A stretch of 64,000 nt of DNA. It comes from Melghirimyces profundicolus (lineage in GTDB: Bacteria; Bacillota; Bacilli; Thermoactinomycetales; DSM-45169). The position numbers and the translations under genes are program-made. Below are positions 45,483-63,005 of the stretch, piece by piece. The DNA lies in contig NZ_QBKR01000001.1 in assembly GCF_003054245.1 (NCBI RefSeq), forward strand, positions 62,001-126,000. The letters run 5' to 3'. The notes beneath the pieces were generated by a model. It was not told where the DNA came from, did no database searches, and was given only the letters and a program-made list of their open reading frames with translations. The first letter of the stretch is position 1; each line of letters opens with the position of its first letter.

Positions 45483-47318
45483 ATGCGGGGTCGCATCCCT
45501 GACGAAGTCATCGACCGGGTCCGGGAGCATTTCGACATCGTCGATGTGGTGGGCCAATCCGTCCGCCTGAAAAGAAGCGGGCGAAACTTTTTTGGTCTTT
45601 GTCCGTTTCATTCTGAGAGGACCCCTTCCTTTTCCGTATCCCCGGAAAAACAGATTTACTATTGTTTCGGCTGCGGTGCCGGCGGAGACGTGTTCAAGTT
45701 CCTGATGGAAACCGAGCAGCTGAGTTTTGTGGAGGCGGTTGTCCAATTGGCCGAAGAAGCGGGGGTTGAGGTGCCTGGCCAGGAAGAGGATGTCCACGAC
45801 CCCGAAGAGGCACGGAAACGAAAGCTCCGGGAGGTGACGGACCTGGCGGCCCGCGTGTATCATCATCTGCTGATGGAAACCGAGCACGGGGAGGCGGCCA
45901 GGCGTTACCTGAAGGAGCGGGGGATTACCCCGGAAACCATGGTCGAATTCCAATTGGGCTACGCTCCCGATTCGTACCATTTCCTTCGATCTTTCTTAAA
46001 ACGCCGGAATTACGATGAAGTGCTGGCCGAAGAGGCAGGGCTGCTGGCCCGGAGGGAGTCCGGCCGGGGGTCGGGATCCCGGTTTGACCGATTCCGCAAC
46101 CGTGTGATCTTTCCGATCCATGATACCCAGGGGAGGGTGATCGGCTTCGGCGGACGGTTGCTGGGGGAGGGCCAGCCCAAATACCTGAACAGCCCGGAGA
46201 CCGCTCTCTTTCACAAAGGCAAATTTCTTTTCAACCTTCACCGTGCCAGGAAAGCGATTCGCTCCGCGGATCAGGCCGTTCTGTTCGAGGGTTACATGGA
46301 CGTGATCTCCGCTTGGCAGGCGGGGATCAAAAACGGTCTGGCGAATCTGGGCACCTCGTTGACAGAGGCTCAGGCACGGGTGATCCGCCGAAACGCCGAA
46401 ACCGCCGTTCTCTGTTACGATTCGGACCCGGCGGGCCAAAACGCGGCAGAACGCGCCATGGAAATGATCCGGGAGCAGGGATGTGTCGTCAAGGTGGCAC
46501 AGATGCCGCCGGGGATGGATCCCGACGATTACATCCGGCAGCGGGGCGGTCCGGCTTTTTCGGGGGAGGTGATCGCACAGGCGCTTCCTTATGTGTCTTT
46601 TAAGCTGGAAGTTCTCAAGGAAGGCTTCGATCTGAAAGACGAGGAAGGGCGGATGCGATACCTGACCCGGGCCGTCGAAGTGATCGCCGGACTGCCCCGT
46701 GCCATCGAGCGGGACCATTACCTTCGCCGGCTGGCCGAAGAGTTCCATTTGTCCCTGGACGCACTCAAACAGGAACACCGGCGCATCGCGTCGAAGAAGA
46801 AGAAAGAAACCGACGGGGATAAAGGAATGGGGAAGTGGAATAATGGATATCATGGCGGCAAACACATGGTCGGTCGACAGCGCCGCCCCCTGGCGCATGA
46901 AGAGGCGGAGAAACGTCTTTTGGTTGCGATGATGCACGATCGGCAGGTGGCCGAACGGGTCAGGGAAACCGTGGGGGCCGGATTCAACGTTGAAATATAC
47001 GGTGCCTTGGCCGCCTACCTCTATGCTTATTACGCCGAAGGCCATCCCGCTGATCCCGGGCGTTTCATCCGCTGTCTGAAGGATGACCGCCTCTTGGAAG
47101 AAGCCAGCGGCCTGGTCATACTGGATGCGCCGGCGGAAGTGACGGAAGAGGAAGTCGCCGATTACATTCGACATATCCTTAATTATCCTCTTTTTAAAGA
47201 AATCGAGTTAAAGAAAGAACAAGTCCGACAGGCAGAGCGTGCCGGTGACATTGCCAAAGCCGCCCGTTTGGGGATTGAACTGATGCGACTGAGGGAACAG
47301 GTTCAAAAAGAGGCTTGA
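45483..47318 (+). CDS. dnaG: DNA primase
   Basis: RNA primer synthesis at the replication fork. It is 611 residues. The CHC2 zinc finger has C40, H43, C61 and C64. The TOPRIM domain has VLFEGYMDVISAWQAG and CYDSDPAGQNAA. The C-terminal domain is expected to bind DnaB helicase. The start is ATG 45483 behind GGAGGCGGTGAT. The sigA gene follows after 33 bases, the classic macromolecular synthesis operon arrangement. Confidence 0.97.
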   Translation: MRGRIPDEVIDRVREHFDIVDVVGQSVRLKRSGRNFFGLCPFHSERTPSFSVSPEKQIYYCFGCGAGGDVFKFLMETEQLSFVEAVVQLAEEAGVEVPGQEEDVHDPEEARKRKLREVTDLAARVYHHLLMETEHGEAARRYLKERGITPETMVEFQLGYAPDSYHFLRSFLKRRNYDEVLAEEAGLLARRESGRGSGSRFDRFRNRVIFPIHDTQGRVIGFGGRLLGEGQPKYLNSPETALFHKGKFLFNLHRARKAIRSADQAVLFEGYMDVISAWQAGIKNGLANLGTSLTEAQARVIRRNAETAVLCYDSDPAGQNAAERAMEMIREQGCVVKVAQMPPGMDPDDYIRQRGGPAFSGEVIAQALPYVSFKLEVLKEGFDLKDEEGRMRYLTRAVEVIAGLPRAIERDHYLRRLAEEFHLSLDALKQEHRRIASKKKKETDGDKGMGKWNNGYHGGKHMVGRQRRPLAHEEAEKRLLVAMMHDRQVAERVRETVGAGFNVEIYGALAAYLYAYYAEGHPADPGRFIRCLKDDRLLEEASGLVILDAPAEVTEEEVADYIRHILNYPLFKEIELKKEQVRQAERAGDIAKAARLGIELMRLREQVQKEA

Positions 47319-47351: not shown

Positions 47352-48470
47352 TTGGCAAACGAGCAGAACGTGGACATGGAACAAGAGCTCACATTGGAGC
47401 AAGTGAAAGAACAATTAACGGACCTCGGGAAAAAACGCGGGGTCCTCACCTATAAAGAGATCATGGAAAAAATGTCCGCTTTTGACCAAGAACCCCAACA
47501 AGTGGATGAATTTTTTGAGAGCCTGAGTGAACAGGGAATCGAAGTGATCAATGAAGACGATGAAAACATGGTCTTCGCCCAGAATGGAGAACCGGATGAA
47601 GAAGAGCTTTTGGAAGATGACCTGAGCGTTCCGCCGGGTGTAAAAATCAACGATCCGGTCCGGATGTATCTTAAGGAGATCGGACGGGTTCCGCTCTTGT
47701 CCGCCGAAGAAGAGGTGGAGTTGGCCAAGCGGATCGAAGAGGGAGATGAAGAGGCCAAACGCCGCCTCGCCGAAGCCAACCTCCGCCTGGTGGTCAGCAT
47801 CGCCAAAAGGTATGTGGGTCGGGGAATGCTGTTTCTCGACCTGATCCAGGAAGGAAACATGGGGCTGATCAAAGCGGTGGAGAAGTTTGACTACCGCAAA
47901 GGATATAAGTTCAGCACCTATGCCACTTGGTGGATCCGGCAGGCGATCACCCGCGCCATCGCCGACCAGGCGCGTACCATTCGGATTCCGGTGCACATGG
48001 TGGAGACGATCAACAAACTGATCCGTGTCTCCCGCCAGCTTCTCCAGGAGTTGGGACGGGAACCCACGCCGGAAGAGATCGCCCAGGAGATGGACCTCAG
48101 TCCCGACAAAGTAAGGGAAATCATGAAAATCGCGCAGGAGCCCGTCTCTCTCGAAACTCCCATCGGAGAGGAAGACGACTCCCATCTGGGGGACTTCATT
48201 CCGGATGACGATGCCCAGGCCCCGGCGGATGCCGCGGCTTACGAACTGTTGAAGGAACAGCTGAAGGATGTGCTGGACACTCTTTCCGACAGGGAAGAAA
48301 ACGTACTGCGCCTCCGCTTCGGGCTGGATGACGGCCGGACCCGCACCCTGGAGGAAGTGGGCAAAGTATTCGGGGTTACCCGGGAACGAATCCGGCAAAT
48401 CGAAGCGAAGGCTTTACGGAAGTTGCGTCATCCCAGCCGGAGCAAGCGGCTGAAAGACTTCCTCGAATAA
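47352..48470 (+). CDS. sigA: RNA polymerase sigma factor SigA (RpoD)
   Basis: Primary housekeeping sigma factor. It is 372 residues, near-identical in layout to Bacillus SigA. Region 1.2 [16 protein letters not shown], region 2 [20 protein letters not shown], region 3 with [20 protein letters not shown] and region 4 [19 protein letters not shown] are intact. The start is TTG 47352, following AAGGAGGG; the upstream ATG 47331 overlaps that site. It recognises TTGACA/TATAAT boxes like those seen before rpsU, rnpB and lepA. Confidence 0.98.
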
Positions 48471-53975: not shown

Positions 53976-54755
53976 ATGAAAGTGATGACTTACAACATTC
54001 GTCATGGTCTGGGTGGGGACCTCAGGGTGGACCTGGAACGAATTGCTTGCGTCATCGAGGGGGAAAACCCCGATTTGGTGGGGTTGAATGAAGTGGATGT
54101 CTGCTTTCACAAAAGGAGCGGTTATGAGAACCAGTTATCCCGGCTGGCGGAGCGGTTGGGTATGGAAGCCGTTTTTGGCCCCGCGATTGAAAAGCCGGCC
54201 CGTGAGGGGGCGGCAGGCTACGGGAACGGCCTTCTGTTAAAGGGAGAGGTGTGCGATTTCCGGAACATCCGGTTTACCCAGCGGGGAGAAGAGCCCCGGT
54301 CTCTTTTGGTGGCGGATGTGATCCCGGCCGGATCGCCTTCGAAAATCCGGATGTTGGTGACCCACATGGGACTGACCCCGTGGATGCGGCGGCAACAGGG
54401 AACGATTCTGTTGGAACAGTTGGAGGAAACGGATTTGCCGGCGGTGGCTGCGGGAGATTGGAACGTCACCCCGGGCCGGTCCGCCGTCACCCGCTTGGCG
54501 CCCGCCCTCCGGGATGTTTTGGCGGTATGCGAAATCGATTCCGCCACCTTTCCCTGCCGCTTTCCACGCATAAGGCTCGACTACATCTTCTGCACCTCCC
54601 ATTTCCGTCCCGTAAAAGCCGCGGTGGTGGCCACCCCGGGCTGTCCATCCGATCATCTTCCCGTTGTGTGCGAATTGGAATGGACGGATCCAAAAGGCAG
54701 GCCCCCTGTCAACCCTCCCGTCATCCGTTATAATAAAAAGGACAGGGACAGTTGA
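53976..54755 (+). CDS. Endonuclease/exonuclease/phosphatase family protein
   Basis: A 259-residue EEP-superfamily metal-dependent hydrolase. KVMTYNIRHG (N-terminal metal-binding asparagine), LVGLNEVD (metal glutamate), AGDWNVTPG, and the terminal RLDYIFC and SDHLPVVCELE motif are visible. It has no signal peptide. The substrate could be a nucleic acid or phospholipid-like phosphodiester. The start is ATG 53976 behind GGGAGGGGG; the longer frame runs through repeat copy F. Confidence 0.85.
   Translation: MKVMTYNIRHGLGGDLRVDLERIACVIEGENPDLVGLNEVDVCFHKRSGYENQLSRLAERLGMEAVFGPAIEKPAREGAAGYGNGLLLKGEVCDFRNIRFTQRGEEPRSLLVADVIPAGSPSKIRMLVTHMGLTPWMRRQQGTILLEQLEETDLPAVAAGDWNVTPGRSAVTRLAPALRDVLAVCEIDSATFPCRFPRIRLDYIFCTSHFRPVKAAVVATPGCPSDHLPVVCELEWTDPKGRPPVNPPVIRYNKKDRDS
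54706..54734 (+). promoter_or_regulatory. Candidate sigma-A promoter of trmK-yqfO
   Basis: CTGTCA (54706-54711), a 17-base spacer and a perfect TATAAT (54729-54734), inside the 3' end of the preceding gene. Confidence 0.5.
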
Positions 54756-54769
54756 AAGGGGGGAGAAGG

Positions 54770-55501
54770 GTGGAAAATAGGGTGTCCGCCAGGATATCGG
54801 CGCTGGCCGACCGGATTCTTCCCGGGCGCACGGTGGCTGATATCGGTTCCGACCACGCGCAGCTCCTGGTGACCCTTGCGGAACGGGGAGCCCTGAAAAA
54901 GGGAATCGCGGGGGAACTTAACCGGGGACCTTACCAAAACGCAGCCGACCGCATCCGGGAGGCAGGATGGACGGAATCGATCGAGGTCCGTCAGGGAGAC
55001 GGTCTGGAGGTGCTCCAACCGGGGGAAGCGGAAGTGATCGTGTTGGCGGGGATGGGAGGTGTCCTGATCACCTCGATCCTCTCCCGGGGGAAAGAAAAAC
55101 TGTCCGGAACGGAGCAGTTGGTACTGCAACCCAACAACAACGGGGACCGGGTCCGGAAATGGCTGAAAGATCACGGGTGGGAAATTGTCGAAGAGGAGCT
55201 GCTCAAGGAGGGCGGTATCCTGTATGAGATCATTTCCGCCCGGCGGGGGGAGTCGGAACGCCCCTACAAGAACCTTCCCCTCCGGCCGGAGTTGCTGTTT
55301 CGGTTGGGACCCCTGCTCTGCCGCGACCGGCACCCCCTTCTGAGGGAAAGAGTAAGGGAAGAAGCGGCCGCTCTGAAACGAATCCTGAACAGCCTCCGCT
55401 CGGCCCGCACTCCCGAAGCGAAGGAGAAACAAGCCGAGGTGGCGGCCCGACTGGAAACATGGAAGGAGGCAGAATTATGGCTGTCACGGGAAACGAGCTG
55501 A
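54770..55501 (+). CDS. trmK: tRNA m1A22 methyltransferase TrmK
   Basis: SAM-dependent methyltransferase forming m1A at position 22 of tRNA (YqfN in Bacillus). It is 243 residues. VADIGSDHAQLLVTLAERGA (SAM motif I with the family DIGSDHA), RQGDGLEVL, VIVLAGMGGVLI and LQPNNN are diagnostic. A C-terminal coiled coil follows. The start is GTG 54770 behind AAAGGGGGGAG. The 3' end overlaps yqfO by 25 bases. Confidence 0.94.
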   Translation: MENRVSARISALADRILPGRTVADIGSDHAQLLVTLAERGALKKGIAGELNRGPYQNAADRIREAGWTESIEVRQGDGLEVLQPGEAEVIVLAGMGGVLITSILSRGKEKLSGTEQLVLQPNNNGDRVRKWLKDHGWEIVEEELLKEGGILYEIISARRGESERPYKNLPLRPELLFRLGPLLCRDRHPLLRERVREEAAALKRILNSLRSARTPEAKEKQAEVAARLETWKEAELWLSRETS

Positions 55502-56586
55502 TCCAGGTGATGGAAACCTGGGCCCCTCAGTCCCTCGCCGTGGAGAACGACCGGATCGGACTGCAGGTGGGCACACGTGACTCGGAAGTGAGAGGGATCG
55601 TTCTCACACTGGATGTCACGGAAAAGGTGGTGGACGAGGCGATTCAACGGGGAGCCAACTGGATCGTCGCGCATCATGCGTTGATCTTCCGGCCGCTGAA
55701 GGACCTCAGGACCGACACACCGGCCGGCCGCATTTACGCCAAGCTTTTGAAGCACGATATCAACGTCTATATCGCCCATACCAACCTCGACGCCGCGTGG
55801 GACGGGGTCAACGATGTGCTTTGTGAGAAACTGGGTGTGAAGAATACCGGAGTGATGATCCCGACACACACCCGGAAACTGAAAAAATTGGTGATCTTTA
55901 TTCCCAAAGACCACCATGAAGAAGTGCTCCGGGCCGTCGCCCGCGCCGGTGCCGGCTGGATCGGGAACTACAGTCACTGCACCTTCAACCTGGACGGAAC
56001 GGGCACGTTCCGTCCCGAAGAAGGAACCAATCCGTATATCGGTAAGCAGGGCGAGTTGGAAAAGGTGGAGGAAATCCGTCTGGAAACCGTGATCACCGAA
56101 GACATCCAGAATACCGTCGTGGAAGCGATGTTCCAGGCTCATCCTTATGAAGAACCGGCTTACGACATCTATCCCCTGGATCTCCCCGGCAAAGCGGACG
56201 GAATCGGGCGTGTGGGAGAACTCCCTCAAGCGATGAAATTGAAAGAACTGGCTCGTCTATTGAAGGAAGCCTACCGAATTCCCGGACTTCGGATGGTGGG
56301 AGACGGGGAGCGGAAAGTGAGCCGGGTCGCCGTTCTCGGCGGATCCGGGGGCCGGTATTACCCCGAAGCTCTGAAACAGGGAGCCGATGTTTACATCACC
56401 GGGGATCTGGATCACCACACCGCCCTGGATGCCTGGGCCGATGGGCTGACGCTGTTGGATCCGGGACATCATGTGGAGCATCTTGTGCTGGAACGGATCG
56501 CCCAAAAGCTGCAGGAAGACAGCACCCTGAAAGAAGTCCCGGTTCAGGTGACCGAAGTGGATACCAATCCCTTCCAATTTATCTAG
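55477..56586 (+). CDS. yqfO: Nif3-like dinuclear metal-centre protein (YqfO)
   Basis: A 369-residue NIF3/DUF34 protein of unclear biochemical role. The metal-binding residues are in WIVAHHALIF, HTNLDAAWDGVND and DPGHHVEHL. As in Bacillus YqfO, a PII/CutA-like domain (about residues 130-235, KLKKLVIFIPKDHHEEVLRA) is inserted between the two halves. The start is ATG 55477 behind AAGGAGG. It is coupled with trmK. Confidence 0.94.
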   Translation: MAVTGNELIQVMETWAPQSLAVENDRIGLQVGTRDSEVRGIVLTLDVTEKVVDEAIQRGANWIVAHHALIFRPLKDLRTDTPAGRIYAKLLKHDINVYIAHTNLDAAWDGVNDVLCEKLGVKNTGVMIPTHTRKLKKLVIFIPKDHHEEVLRAVARAGAGWIGNYSHCTFNLDGTGTFRPEEGTNPYIGKQGELEKVEEIRLETVITEDIQNTVVEAMFQAHPYEEPAYDIYPLDLPGKADGIGRVGELPQAMKLKELARLLKEAYRIPGLRMVGDGERKVSRVAVLGGSGGRYYPEALKQGADVYITGDLDHHTALDAWADGLTLLDPGHHVEHLVLERIAQKLQEDSTLKEVPVQVTEVDTNPFQFI

Positions 56587-56605: not shown

Positions 56606-56634
56606 TTGCAACGAAAGCATGTATCTGATATAAT
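56606..56634 (+). promoter_or_regulatory. Sigma-A promoter of rnpB
   Basis: TTGCAA (56606-56611), a 17-base spacer and a perfect TATAAT (56629-56634), about 20 bases before the RNase P RNA. Confidence 0.85.
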
Positions 56635-56652: not shown

Positions 56653-57078
56653 AGGGAAAGTAAACTAGGCAATCGCCGGTGGTGTACCGCAAGGTCCCAC
56701 GGGAGGAAAGTCCGAGCTCCACAGGGCAGGGTGCCGGCTAACGGCCGGTGGAGGCAACTCTAAGGAAAGTGCCACAGAAATGCAGACCGCCGATGGGAAC
56801 GTGACCGTTCCACAGGCAAGGGTGCAACGGTGCGGTAAGAGCGCACCAGCAGCATGGAGACATGCTGGCTAGGTAAACCCCACCCGGAGCAAGACCATAA
56901 AGGGATCGGCGCCTTGACGGGCGCAGCTGTGGCCCGCAGTGATCCCGGGTTGGTCGCTTGAGCGGTGCAGCAATGCATCGCCTAGACAGATGATTGCCAC
57001 TCCAATCGGTGGGAGGCGTTCCGACAACGCCGCGTAACCACTTGGAGGACAGAACTCGGCTTATGGTTTGCTTTCCCA
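56653..57078 (+). ncRNA. rnpB: RNase P RNA, type A-like
   Basis: Catalytic RNA of ribonuclease P for tRNA 5' maturation. P1 pairs 56654-56667 (GGGAAAGTAAACTA) with 57064-57077 (TGGTTTGCTTTCCC). P2 pairs GGCAATC with GATTGCC. The P4 strands are GAGGAAAGTCCGAGCTCC and GGACAGAACTCGGCTTATGG. Conserved CAGGGTGCCGG-TAACGGCCGG, GTGCCACAGAA, CCGCCGATGG, GGTGCGGTAAGAGCGCACC and GTAAACCCCACCCGGAGCAA follow the type A order of Escherichia coli-like RNAs. The expected type B (Bacillus) helices P5.1 and P15.1 are not seen. Confidence 0.95.
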
Positions 57079-57107
57079 TTATATATGTAAATGAATGAGG
57101 TCGATTG

Positions 57108-57137
57108 AAAAACGGCGTATCCACGCCGTTTTTTTGT
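57108..57137 (+). terminator. Terminator after rnpB
   Basis: The stem AACGGCGT / ACGCCGTT with an ATCC-like loop is followed by seven T. Confidence 0.92.
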
Positions 57138-57275
57138 GTCTTATTTTGTAATCAAAAGGTGATCTTGGTGTGATTTTGCTGTCGGGGTCACGTAATGTTT
57201 TCCTGTTAAGCTTGGAATAAATAAGAAGCGAAGCGGTGTTTGGAACACAGGACGGTAAAAGGAGGGGCCGCGCCC

Positions 57276-58094
57276 ATGAAAAAGTGGATCCTGATCATCA
57301 TCAGCCTCTCCCTGGTTGTACTCAGCATCCGCTATTATCCACTCATCCGGTTCATGGTGGCGGAAAAGCCAGAGGAACCGATCATGGTTTCCGACGTAAA
57401 CATTCTCTCAAAGCTGAAAGAAGCAGCCAAGGAACAAGAAACGTTGAATTACCTGGTGCTCGGGGATTCCGTGGCCCGGGGTTTTGGCTCCGAAAAAACA
57501 GGGCCCCATGGCTACAGTTCCCTTGTGGTGAAAGGGCTGGGACAGGATGAGATTTCTTTGAATCTGGTCAACAAGGGGGTGGTGGGTCAAACCTCCACCA
57601 AACTGCGGAATTACATTCAAAAAAAGGATATCAGGGAGAGTATTGCAAACGCCGATCTCATTTCACTGACCATCGGCGGGAACGATTTGTTGAAAGTGGC
57701 TTTGAAGGAAAACAATCCCTTGCGTGTGATCTCCGATTTTAACCGCATTCAGGCACAATATAAAGAGAACCTTTCGGGGATTTTGAAGGAAATCCGTTCT
57801 CTGAACCATGAAGCGCCGATTTTGATCACTTCCCTGTACAATCCCGTCTCCAAGGGAGAACCTTTTTACCGGATTTCCAATCATCTGCTGAACCAGTGGA
57901 ACGTCGGTTTGAAACAGATGGCTTACGGATATTCCCTCACCCTCGTGGTGGACGTGGCCGACCGGCTTCCAGCGGGTAGCAGAAATTGGCTCTCCGATCA
58001 GATCCATCCCAATGACCGGGGTTACCGTTTGATCGCCGACGGCATTCTGGACGAAATTCGTTCCAGCCGGCCCACCTCCGCCAGTGCCCGCTGA
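57276..58094 (+). CDS. SGNH/GDSL hydrolase, membrane-anchored or secreted
   Basis: A 272-residue esterase/lipase-type protein. The N-terminal hydrophobic segment (about residues 4-22) acts as signal anchor. Block I LGDSVARGFG has the nucleophile serine at about residue 65. Block III is IGGND. Block V DQIHPND contains the catalytic aspartate and histidine. The family hydrolyses esters on lipids, sugars or wall polymers; the substrate is not known. The start is ATG 57276 behind AAAGGAGGGG. Confidence 0.9.
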   Translation: MKKWILIIISLSLVVLSIRYYPLIRFMVAEKPEEPIMVSDVNILSKLKEAAKEQETLNYLVLGDSVARGFGSEKTGPHGYSSLVVKGLGQDEISLNLVNKGVVGQTSTKLRNYIQKKDIRESIANADLISLTIGGNDLLKVALKENNPLRVISDFNRIQAQYKENLSGILKEIRSLNHEAPILITSLYNPVSKGEPFYRISNHLLNQWNVGLKQMAYGYSLTLVVDVADRLPAGSRNWLSDQIHPNDRGYRLIADGILDEIRSSRPTSASAR

Positions 58095-59204: not shown

Positions 59205-62200
59205 TTAAGGGGTGGACCATTCGGCGGACAGAGGGATCCGCCAGGTCTGTCCTTCTTTGATGTTGTAAACAAATCCTTTGGACATGTTTTTCGGATCTTT
59301 GGTTTTACGGATCAGTGTGGAACTTCCGATGTCCAAGGTATAACGATTTCCCTGTAGATGCCGGATTCCTTTGATTTCATAGGCTGCGTTTCGTTCTCCA
59401 TCGTTATCAATAAATATCGTTCGCCCGATCACGGATTCCGGAGAGTGGAGTTTGTCCTTCAGTTTCACCGTGATTTCGTTACGGATACTCAGCTCTTTGG
59501 TGAATGTGAGAATCGTGCCTTTTATACGGGCTTTTTTATTTTGTAACAGCGGCTTTCCGGCAGGGGATATGAACTTCCCATCGTTCAGATAGGCATAGAC
59601 CGGCTTGCCGTTTTTTTCACTGTAAACGCCGAAAAAACCTTGAAAACGCAATTTTTCGCCAATGGTGTAGGTGACATCAGGATCCAGGGAATTGACGATG
59701 GTATCCACTCTGCCGTTTTTCAATTCCACTTTCAAGGCGCATGCTCGATGGTGGGTCACCTTTTTTCCGTCAACAGTCAGTTCCACCGGAGTAACCGAAC
59801 GGATAAAACGTTCATCCTGGTATGCTTCAAGGAGTGACACAAATTGGCTTTTCAGGTTCTTTCCCTCCCGGTGTGCAATCAGATAGCGAAGTCGCTTGGG
59901 GTTTCCGGGCAACCGGGGAGGAATTCCGTCGGCCAAAGCGGCGTCATCCACTTGATTTAACAGGGTGAGGCGAAGATGAATGTTTTTTTCTTCCGGAAGA
60001 ACGGACCACGTATCCCTTATCTTCCAATCGACGCTGAAAGGCCCGTTTGGATTTTGAGCCCGTTCCACATTGGTGAGGTAATGAAATCCGCTTCCGGCAT
60101 ATTCCCAGCCGGAGGGTTGATCCGGCTCTTTTTCCCCATAATGAACATCTTCACCGGCATAGGTTCCCCGCTTCTGTTCCGTGAGATTTAAGCCGTCAAC
60201 GGTTGTTAGACCTTCCGCTCCGTGAAAACTGAAATGGTGATGGTCACCGCCTTGGATTCGGAAGAAATCGACTGCATAGGAATTTTGATCGTCGACGCGG
60301 ATCATGGCCGTTGTTCGGCGATACTGCTCGGTTTGCGGGTAAACATGGGGTGCGTCCACATCAATGAGTTGGACGCGGGAGGAACTGTCGAAATGGTGAG
60401 GGATTGAGGAGAGGGAGTCATGTTGCTTGGTTTGATCGACGACCACGGTGTTATGACTGACGGTATTGCTGACCCATTCCGTCCGGTTTTTGAAGTTGTC
60501 GGGATAACCCAGATCGGGGCTGAGGTCCAGTCCGAAAGCATGGTAACCGATGTTTAATGTGTCCTTGTGTCCATGACGTCCCACCAAATTTTTGCCGTAG
60601 TACATCCAAAGTCCCCGTCGTTTCGAATTCCCCCCGGAGGAGGTTTTGCTGTCGGAGGCGGGCTTCAGAGCCATGCCGGTCAGGCCCAGTTTATACCCGG
60701 TCGCCCGGGGATTTTTCCCCCGGTTGATAAAGGTAAGCGTGTGTTCTCCCTTCTCCAGCTTTAAAGAACCGACAGATCGACTTCCTCCCTTGTTTCCCGA
60801 TCCGTAAAAATCGTGTGTGCCGACCTGCTTCCCATCCACTTTGAGCTCATAAATGCCGTAAGAGCTGGCTGAAAGAGGCATCAGCTCCAGGACGTAGTTC
60901 CCCGTTTGCGGGGATTTGAACCGGAAGGAGATCCGATCGCCTCTCTTTCTGGATTCCAGCTGAATCGAACCCGTTTCGGCGTAATAGTCCTCCGGGATGT
61001 CAAAGGCTTCGGGATCCCGTTTGCCCCATTCATCCGTTTCCAGGTGAATGGGCCCTTGATGTTCGATAACCTCGGCAGTTGATTCCAGCCGTTTCAGATT
61101 GGAAAAGAAGAAAAAGGAAGTTTCTTGATGTGTTGAAGGGACATTTCCCCCGTCCCTCAATGCGGCGAACCCGAATCCGGGAAGATGGGTTTCTCTCTGT
61201 TTCAACGGCCCCTCTTCCTCGAGGACCTTCCGGATATCCCGGGACACCTGTTCCGGATCCGCATCGAAAAGACTTCCGTGGAGTCCATCGGTCGAGTTTC
61301 CATTCAAAAGGTAGGCCATTTGGGCGTAAACGGGCTTTCGGTATCGTGTGAATGCGTCCACATGTTCCTGAACCGTCCCGACAATACCGGGATTTCCCGT
61401 TCTAAAGGAATCCCCGATCTGGGGGGTGTACCGGTTACCCATCACCAGAGGGTAACGGGTGTCAAACATCTTTCGGAACTTGACGTTTTGGTACAAATCG
61501 GCCTTCGGATAACGGTCGTAGCCTTCCAGGATGTCAGCCACTCCCTGGATTTGCGTCAACCAATAACTGTTGTACTGGGTCGAGGGCTCGTCTCCGAATC
61601 CATCCCGATCCACCTGGTTCAACAAGGTCGCCATCACATTGCCCCCGGTTAAATGCCAATCCGGTTGGGATCGGAGTTCACCGGGTTGAAACACCCAGTC
61701 GATCCATTCCTCCGAAGTTCCCGGCTCGTCCAAGACCACCGCGGCCATGGCAAGTGTCCGCTGGTGCATACCGAAGTTTCCCCGAATCTGAGCGTTCTTT
61801 ACGGCCGGATAGATCTCGCGCAGCAATCCGTCCTCAATGTTTTTACGGATGGCGGAGACGGTGTTTTTGGGATTATCCATATGATATTTCTGAGCCTTTG
61901 CGTTCAAAAAAGGGATCACGTCCGCTTCTTCCATCCCGGGGAAGAAGGCGTCATAAGCGGACAGGTAGTGGATTGCAGCTGTTGCTTCCCAAATGCTTCC
62001 CCGAACCTTTCCTTTCCCGGTTCCGCCGTGGGAATGGAGAAAACCGTCTTCCCATTTGTAGACGGATACATCCATTTCAGGGTAGACATCCGCAATCCGG
62101 TCCAGCAGAATGGTGCCCGCCTGTGCATATTTCACATCCCCTGTGTACAGATAGGCGTCGCGGAACGCCCGAAGCGCCTTGTCCACCACTCCGCCGTGCC

Positions 62201-62816
62201 AAACGTGCCAGTGGTTGTAATACGCGACAAAGGTCCAGCGGTTGCCGTCCTCATCCACCCAACCCGTGCCGTCGTCGACGCCCCAATATTTACCTTTTTC
62301 AGGATAGAGCTCATTCACCAAATATCTCTTGTCCGCTTTTTCGGGGTCGAAATTGCCATGCTCGTCCAACCCGCTTTTGTAATAAGATGCAAAGTCATTG
62401 GTGGGGAATTTGTAACCGCTGCTGGGGTCTGTCAGTTTCCAGGGTTCATTCAGGGGATCCGCCTGCCATCCGCGGTAACCGTACTTTTCGTTGAATTCCT
62501 TGCCGGTGATGGGAGACCCCAGTTCCAAATTGACGGCGAAGCTACGGGGGAGGTTTTGAGTGGTCACCGCATTCCACAGATTCTCCACTCCGAAATCCAG
62601 ATACTTTTCCGCATCCAAGACGGCATGATTCTTGATTTCTTTGGCCCAATCGTATTTTTTCACGTTTTTCCTGGCGTTGGCCACTTTTTTCGGAGTGTAG
62701 AACGTGCTTCGGGTCTTTACATTTTTCCATTCGGGATCGGCCCTCGCGGGAAGCGTCCCGAAAAGGGCGGCGCTCAATGTCAACAACGCGACGAGAAGGA
62801 GGATGGAACCTTTCAT
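59205..62816 (-). CDS. Large secreted heparinase II/III-like polysaccharide lyase
   Basis: A 1203-residue exported protein. A signal peptide (about residues 1-27, ending LPARA) is followed by an alpha/alpha-toroid domain typical of alginate/heparinase lyases (about residues 40-560, with YYNHWHVWHGGVVDKALRAF and GNFGMHQRTLA). A beta-sandwich carbohydrate-binding-like insertion follows (about residues 610-725, RISFRFKSPQTGNYVLELM). The heparinase II/III-like beta domain (about residues 740-1203) has GRHGHKDTLNIGYHAFG and VSHNTVVVDQ, the expected active-site region. The substrate is unknown. The start is ATG 62816, behind GGAAGGGG on the minus strand. Nearly twice the length of ordinary heparinases. 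Confidence 0.85.
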   Translation of the reverse strand: MKGSILLLVALLTLSAALFGTLPARADPEWKNVKTRSTFYTPKKVANARKNVKKYDWAKEIKNHAVLDAEKYLDFGVENLWNAVTTQNLPRSFAVNLELGSPITGKEFNEKYGYRGWQADPLNEPWKLTDPSSGYKFPTNDFASYYKSGLDEHGNFDPEKADKRYLVNELYPEKGKYWGVDDGTGWVDEDGNRWTFVAYYNHWHVWHGGVVDKALRAFRDAYLYTGDVKYAQAGTILLDRIADVYPEMDVSVYKWEDGFLHSHGGTGKGKVRGSIWEATAAIHYLSAYDAFFPGMEEADVIPFLNAKAQKYHMDNPKNTVSAIRKNIEDGLLREIYPAVKNAQIRGNFGMHQRTLAMAAVVLDEPGTSEEWIDWVFQPGELRSQPDWHLTGGNVMATLLNQVDRDGFGDEPSTQYNSYWLTQIQGVADILEGYDRYPKADLYQNVKFRKMFDTRYPLVMGNRYTPQIGDSFRTGNPGIVGTVQEHVDAFTRYRKPVYAQMAYLLNGNSTDGLHGSLFDADPEQVSRDIRKVLEEEGPLKQRETHLPGFGFAALRDGGNVPSTHQETSFFFFSNLKRLESTAEVIEHQGPIHLETDEWGKRDPEAFDIPEDYYAETGSIQLESRKRGDRISFRFKSPQTGNYVLELMPLSASSYGIYELKVDGKQVGTHDFYGSGNKGGSRSVGSLKLEKGEHTLTFINRGKNPRATGYKLGLTGMALKPASDSKTSSGGNSKRRGLWMYYGKNLVGRHGHKDTLNIGYHAFGLDLSPDLGYPDNFKNRTEWVSNTVSHNTVVVDQTKQHDSLSSIPHHFDSSSRVQLIDVDAPHVYPQTEQYRRTTAMIRVDDQNSYAVDFFRIQGGDHHHFSFHGAEGLTTVDGLNLTEQKRGTYAGEDVHYGEKEPDQPSGWEYAGSGFHYLTNVERAQNPNGPFSVDWKIRDTWSVLPEEKNIHLRLTLLNQVDDAALADGIPPRLPGNPKRLRYLIAHREGKNLKSQFVSLLEAYQDERFIRSVTPVELTVDGKKVTHHRACALKVELKNGRVDTIVNSLDPDVTYTIGEKLRFQGFFGVYSEKNGKPVYAYLNDGKFISPAGKPLLQNKKARIKGTILTFTKELSIRNEITVKLKDKLHSPESVIGRTIFIDNDGERNAAYEIKGIRHLQGNRYTLDIGSSTLIRKTKDPKNMSKGFVYNIKEGQTWRIPLSAEWSTP

Positions 62817-63005
62817 CGGACTTCCCCTTCCTGAAAAATTTTCACTATTTTGACACAAGATTATAATCCTCAATCTGGTAAGACAAGTCTTTTTATCGTC
62901 CAAAATCCTTGGCGGCATTCTTGTGGAAATTCTCCTTTTTGAGACGTGCGGTTCCCTCTATAATAATTTTTAACCTGAAACCAAAAACAGGGAGGGGTGT
63001 GAACA

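Follow-up and report, generated by a model that had tools for sequence, protein, structure and literature searches.

The type A RNase P RNA of Melghirimyces profundicolus at the trmK-nif3 locus, and the separate loci of type B RNase P RNA in its relatives

The rnpB gene of the window and its neighbours

We analysed a 64,000-nt stretch of the Melghirimyces profundicolus genome (the window), which carries on its plus strand the rnpB gene for a type A RNase P RNA, the catalytic RNA subunit (56654..57077). The cmscan search of the window gave a match to the type A model RF00010 at 56657-57078 (+) with 289.8 bits (E 1e-93), in which the whole model (1-367 of 367) was aligned, far over its gathering cut-off of 100 bits. 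There, the type B model RF00011 reached 39.6 bits, short of its cut-off of 97 bits, and this residual score reflects the catalytic core, which alone is common to both types. No second RF00011 match was found elsewhere in the 3.77-Mb assembly (scored 100% complete) in a whole-genome search. The gene encodes a complete type A RNase P RNA and is the only rnpB of the genome. An earlier note on this DNA had proposed a type A RNA at 56653-57078; the coordinates were right to within 1-3 nt, and in the Rfam comparison it had suggested the type A model outscored the type B model, not the reverse.

Helix P1 consists of 14 uninterrupted pairs between 56654-56667 and 57064-57077, exactly the length given in the earlier note. 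The type A alignment of the window RNA showed P13, P14, P16-P17, P18 and a P19-like hairpin, with P13/P14 and P16/P17 paired in the cmscan alignment. Both motifs that the earlier note had picked out are present: GCGGTAAGAGCGCACC is P13, and CACCCGGAGCAAGACC lies at the transition from the 3' strands of P7/P5 to P15. The conserved core is intact (GAGGAAAGUCC and ACAGAAC...GGCUUA). In addition, a P6 pseudoknot, in which the P17 loop pairs with a strand close to P5, could by inspection be formed by GGGC (56724-56727) and GCCC (56932-56935); pairing of this kind is ignored by the Rfam model. The full-length type A alignment left no room for P5.1, P10.1 or P15.1, the sequence being occupied by type A helices; the absence of P5.1 and P15.1 had been claimed before, and P10.1 proved to be missing likewise.

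A sigma-70-type promoter, TTGCAA-17-TATAAT with an extended TG, lies at 56606..56634 (+) and agrees with the consensus at 10/12 positions; since 0.7 promoter-like sites are expected per shuffle, this call is suggestive only. An intrinsic terminator with a 12-bp stem and a T run follows at 57107..57134 (+). With its full-length match, the helices P13, P14, P16-P17 and P18, its core and its own promoter and terminator, the window RNA resembles the type A family and differs from it in nothing notable, as its additional P19-like hairpin and its variable P12 are both common among type A RNAs. Compared to the type B family, by contrast, it shares the core but lacks P5.1, P10.1 and P15.1, and it scores far under the cut-off. 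Its family membership predicts that it should cleave the 5' leaders of pre-tRNAs together with the cell's single RnpA, a function consistent with the intact core and with its being the sole rnpB of a complete-looking genome.

The immediate upstream neighbour of rnpB is nif3/yqfO (DUF34/NIF3; 55459..56586, +; Pfam DUF34_NIF3, 4e-81), which is preceded by trmK, encoding a tRNA (adenine22-N1)-methyltransferase (54752..55501, +; Pfam TrmK, 5.9e-57). Farther upstream, tblastn with orthologues from other type A families located dnaG (46344-47300, +; C-terminal part matched) and sigA (47364-48467, +). A GDSL lipase/acylhydrolase gene (57240-58094, +) lies directly 3' of rnpB, and families f1-f4 have such a gene at the corresponding position (cluster C19).

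Distribution and ancestral locus of type A

The source lineage is Thermoactinomycetaceae, which belongs to an order separate from Bacillales in the strict sense. Type A exceeded the cut-off in 41 of the 42 genomes of this order, the exception being a genome only 68% complete, and in 40/40 of those at least 90% complete. Among 300 genomes of class Bacilli, sampled evenly but thinly by family, 104 (about a third) passed the cut-off for type A and 197 that for type B. Type A is carried by 19 families of the class, including Alicyclobacillaceae and also Tumebacillaceae, which have type B too. In the rest of the phylum, 105/119 genomes passed the type A cut-off (4 of the 119 are Bacilli). The window RNA is thus ordinary for its order and no oddity. 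The earlier note had presented it as type A in a Bacillus-like genome; the type stands, but the view of an isolated exception among Bacillales does not. Reviews have indeed assigned type B to "most", not all, low-GC Gram-positives (PMC4919922), and a 2010 paper described type B as restricted to low-GC Gram-positives (PMC2858038). Taken alone, the window RNA is one further member of type A, and it is the comparison with relatives that carries the interest.

We clustered the gene neighbourhoods around ~75 rnpB loci. In 17 of the 19 type A families of Bacilli, trmK and/or nif3 lay upstream of rnpB, often with sigA and dnaG farther upstream, and all four genes are present in the window. The conserved order is dnaG-sigA-trmK-nif3-rnpB(A). 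Beyond Bacilli, in 16/30 type A loci of other classes of the phylum, a Nif3 gene lay no more than 1.5 kb away. In the tree of type A RNAs, all Bacilli grouped together (support 1.0), the window's order formed a group, and Tumebacillaceae fell with Alicyclobacillaceae, in agreement with the species tree.

The species tree was built from 3499 ribosomal-protein positions. In it, type A and type B families are intermixed and a minimum of nine changes is required, although several of its deep nodes are poorly supported. The type A families f24/f35 were, with full support, the sister group of the core type B clade, and Tumebacillaceae were placed with the type-B-only families f19, f33 and f38. Type B relatives thus surround the window lineage on several sides, as would be expected if it descended from type B ancestors and had regained type A, and a gain of type A seems to have occurred in one genome outside Bacilli (G423, below). 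The trmK-nif3 locus, however, is common to the window and 16 other families of Bacilli, with nif3 recurring in other classes, and repeated independent regains at a single locus are implausible. Together with an RNA tree that follows the species tree, this makes reversion highly improbable. The earlier note had left both courses in play, the lineage having either kept or regained the ancestral form. The conserved locus and the concordant trees indicate vertical descent at the ancestral site, and with type A prevailing in the rest of the phylum, the evidence clearly favours a lineage that kept its ancestral type A at the ancestral locus over one that reverted.

Loci of type B and genomes with both types

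Whereas the window RNA is found at nif3, type B RNAs are found at gpsB-rlmL or in tRNA arrays. In the core Bacilli (21 families), type B adjoins gpsB and/or rlmL and usually sits between both; among the loci examined it was never at the nif3 site. Outside this core clade, neighbourhood clustering found no conserved protein neighbours of type B, only tRNA and rRNA genes. A same-strand tRNA or rRNA gene lay at most 300 nt from type B in 10 of the 14 families outside the gpsB locus, as opposed to 0/19 type A families of Bacilli and 0/21 core type B families (Fisher 1e-5 and 5e-6, with families treated as independent). A tRNA gene within 300 nt of type B was absent in f19, f27, f33 and f66. At the non-gpsB loci where type B lies in a tRNA array or just 5' of an rRNA operon (L092/L144, L105/L146, L142, L143, L149, L101, L200, L096, L234 and L237), the nearest tRNA was 11-164 nt away. 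For example, type B in G131 is embedded in an array of 16 tRNAs, with one tRNA 64 nt away on one side and another 11 nt away on the other, and in G058 it lies between tRNA-Ser and tRNA-Phe. In Tumebacillus it adjoins tRNA-Thr, except in G181, in which it is instead ~240 nt upstream of a 16S rRNA gene.

In several genomes, two or three full-length copies of type B rnpB lie at different loci [G170, G180, G199, G074 (f32), G219 (f17), G134, G203 (f27); loci L150-L161 and L102-L116]. We also considered mobile elements as carriers of type B and rejected them: matches in phage and plasmid collections were few, partial and mostly from hosts with core-type B, and a pattern scan of IMG/VR found no type B on viruses. 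One match, in a 21.7-kb "plasmid" of Geobacillus stearothermophilus 10 (CP008935.1, L162), was discarded as a mobile type B since the normal DivIVA-family (gpsB-like) neighbour is present. It holds a type B rnpB, the DivIVA-family gene and spore protein genes, a content that suggests a fragment of chromosome and not a plasmid.

Both types of RNase P RNA are encoded in 6/7 Tumebacillaceae genomes, including the complete T. avium AR23208. The type A genes of these dual genomes scored 300-306 bits and the type B genes 261-298 bits. Wide flanks were examined for three of the type A loci, all of which were at trmK-nif3; type B was elsewhere. No type A was found in G171, a draft of 110 contigs. Contamination was rejected as the source of the pairs because the dual state recurs in six genomes of a single family, of which two are single-contig chromosomes. 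Five of the six dual genomes each yielded one RnpA gene, and none was found in the draft of T. lacus (G161, 95% complete). In small alignments, we counted base pairs kept through two-sided changes: six Tumebacillaceae with two neighbours gave 36 such pairs for type B, and six Tumebacillaceae gave 15 for type A. Such compensating substitutions in both RNAs argue that neither is a decaying relic, and we infer that both work in the dual species.

A further dual genome, G423, is a complete 3.3-Mb genome outside Bacilli. It has type B beside tRNA-Met (19 nt before it) plus an extra type A at an unusual site (loci L234 and L243). We rejected it as a second ancestral dual genome because its type A lies away from nif3. 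That site, in a family otherwise of type B, suggests that type A may be the newcomer there, and a gain of type A, in the reverse direction, is thus possible too.

A probable route from type A to type B

The origin of type B in low-GC Gram-positives has so far been discussed as the change of one molecule. The classical view is that B derives from A (PMC2858038). Under stepwise conversion of a single gene, P6, P13, P14, P16 and P17 would have been lost and P5.1, P10.1 and P15.1 gained, and the gene would have moved later; the very first type B would then need no dual stage. No intermediates appeared, however. A complete gene that scores high with one model scores low with the other, type B genes reaching ~50-93 bits with the A model and type A genes ~38-63 bits with the B model. 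Neither the lack of type B at the nif3 site nor the complete versions of both types in the dual genomes fits such a course, which would at best cover the first origin of type B, and we regard it as very unlikely for the changes seen here. These observations suggest that type B in the relatives was not made by remodelling the type A gene in place. In the core group, type B could still have come from a duplicated copy that was then remodelled at the gpsB site.

We consider it likely that the window rnpB is the ancestral type A gene at its ancestral locus, and that type B in other lineages came as a separate gene and co-existed with type A until type A was lost, repeatedly. A second rnpB, of type B, would have entered at another site, often within a tRNA array or an rRNA operon. 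The two RNAs would have shared one RnpA for a time, as is still visible in Tumebacillus, and the older type A copy, by then dispensable, would have been lost. In vivo, either type of RNA can stand in for the other (Wegscheid et al. 2006, as cited in PMC2858038), which makes sharing of RnpA plausible. Given the separate type B loci, the linkage to tRNA genes and the dual genomes, this route of acquisition, co-existence and loss of A was probably taken several times within the phylum. The earlier note had held that this lineage bears on the A-to-B question, and we agree; the dual genomes and the separate type B locus, which it did not foresee, are the more informative part.

The same dual genomes could also be survivors of an old pair. 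If the ancestor of the phylum had type A at nif3 and type B elsewhere, and lineages later lost one or the other, Tumebacillus would have lost neither. The single conserved locus of type A across the phylum is consistent with this, and so is the tree of type B RNAs, in which Tumebacillus B groups with the B of the sister type-B-only families f33 and f19, the pattern expected under vertical descent. This grouping indicates that type B was probably present in the shared ancestor of Tumebacillus, f33 and f19 when type A was still there. A redundant pair would, however, have had to persist through the deepest splits, yet almost all of the hundreds of genomes tested have a single type, and the 119 genomes across the phylum are overwhelmingly A. 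Nor does type B have a common locus outside the core clade. Moreover, the second type B copies of f27 fall near the Tumebacillus side rather than with f27's own B, which suggests transfer of type B into f27, although single transfer events are weakly resolved because the RNA trees have few informative columns. Differential loss from a dual ancestor is therefore an unlikely account of the pattern.

As to how type B was acquired, our tentative suggestion, for which the chances are somewhat short of even, is that it spread across the Bacillota via tRNA arrays into type A cells, shared their RnpA, was co-transcribed with its own tRNA substrates and displaced type A, with Tumebacillus as living intermediates. 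If so, a single Tumebacillus cell would contain two RNase P ribozymes of different structure. Partial parallels exist. Extra rnpB copies predicted in mycobacteria (PMC9569102) are likewise additional stable-RNA genes, and ncRNA genes (GOLLD, for example) in horizontally moved tRNA arrays (PMC6582537) are likewise stable-RNA genes that ride on tRNA clusters, but neither case involves a second type of RNase P RNA. In the open-licence PMC text that we searched, no publication was found that deals with both Tumebacillus and RNase P, and no A-plus-B pair of RNase P RNAs was described; we found no earlier report of the dual genomes and the separate type B locus, and their novelty is to be read as "not found" rather than "proven new". 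With two types at separately conserved loci, mixed over the species tree and both encoded in some living species, the question becomes experimentally approachable.

Two other features of the window lie apart from rnpB. A T-box leader was matched at 1041-1273 (+; RF00230, 123.6 bits). An ORF of 1237 aa at 59205-62918 (-) has a C-terminal part that marginally matches a heparinase II/III-like family (24.1 bits against a cut-off of 24) and possibly encodes a secreted polysaccharide lyase.
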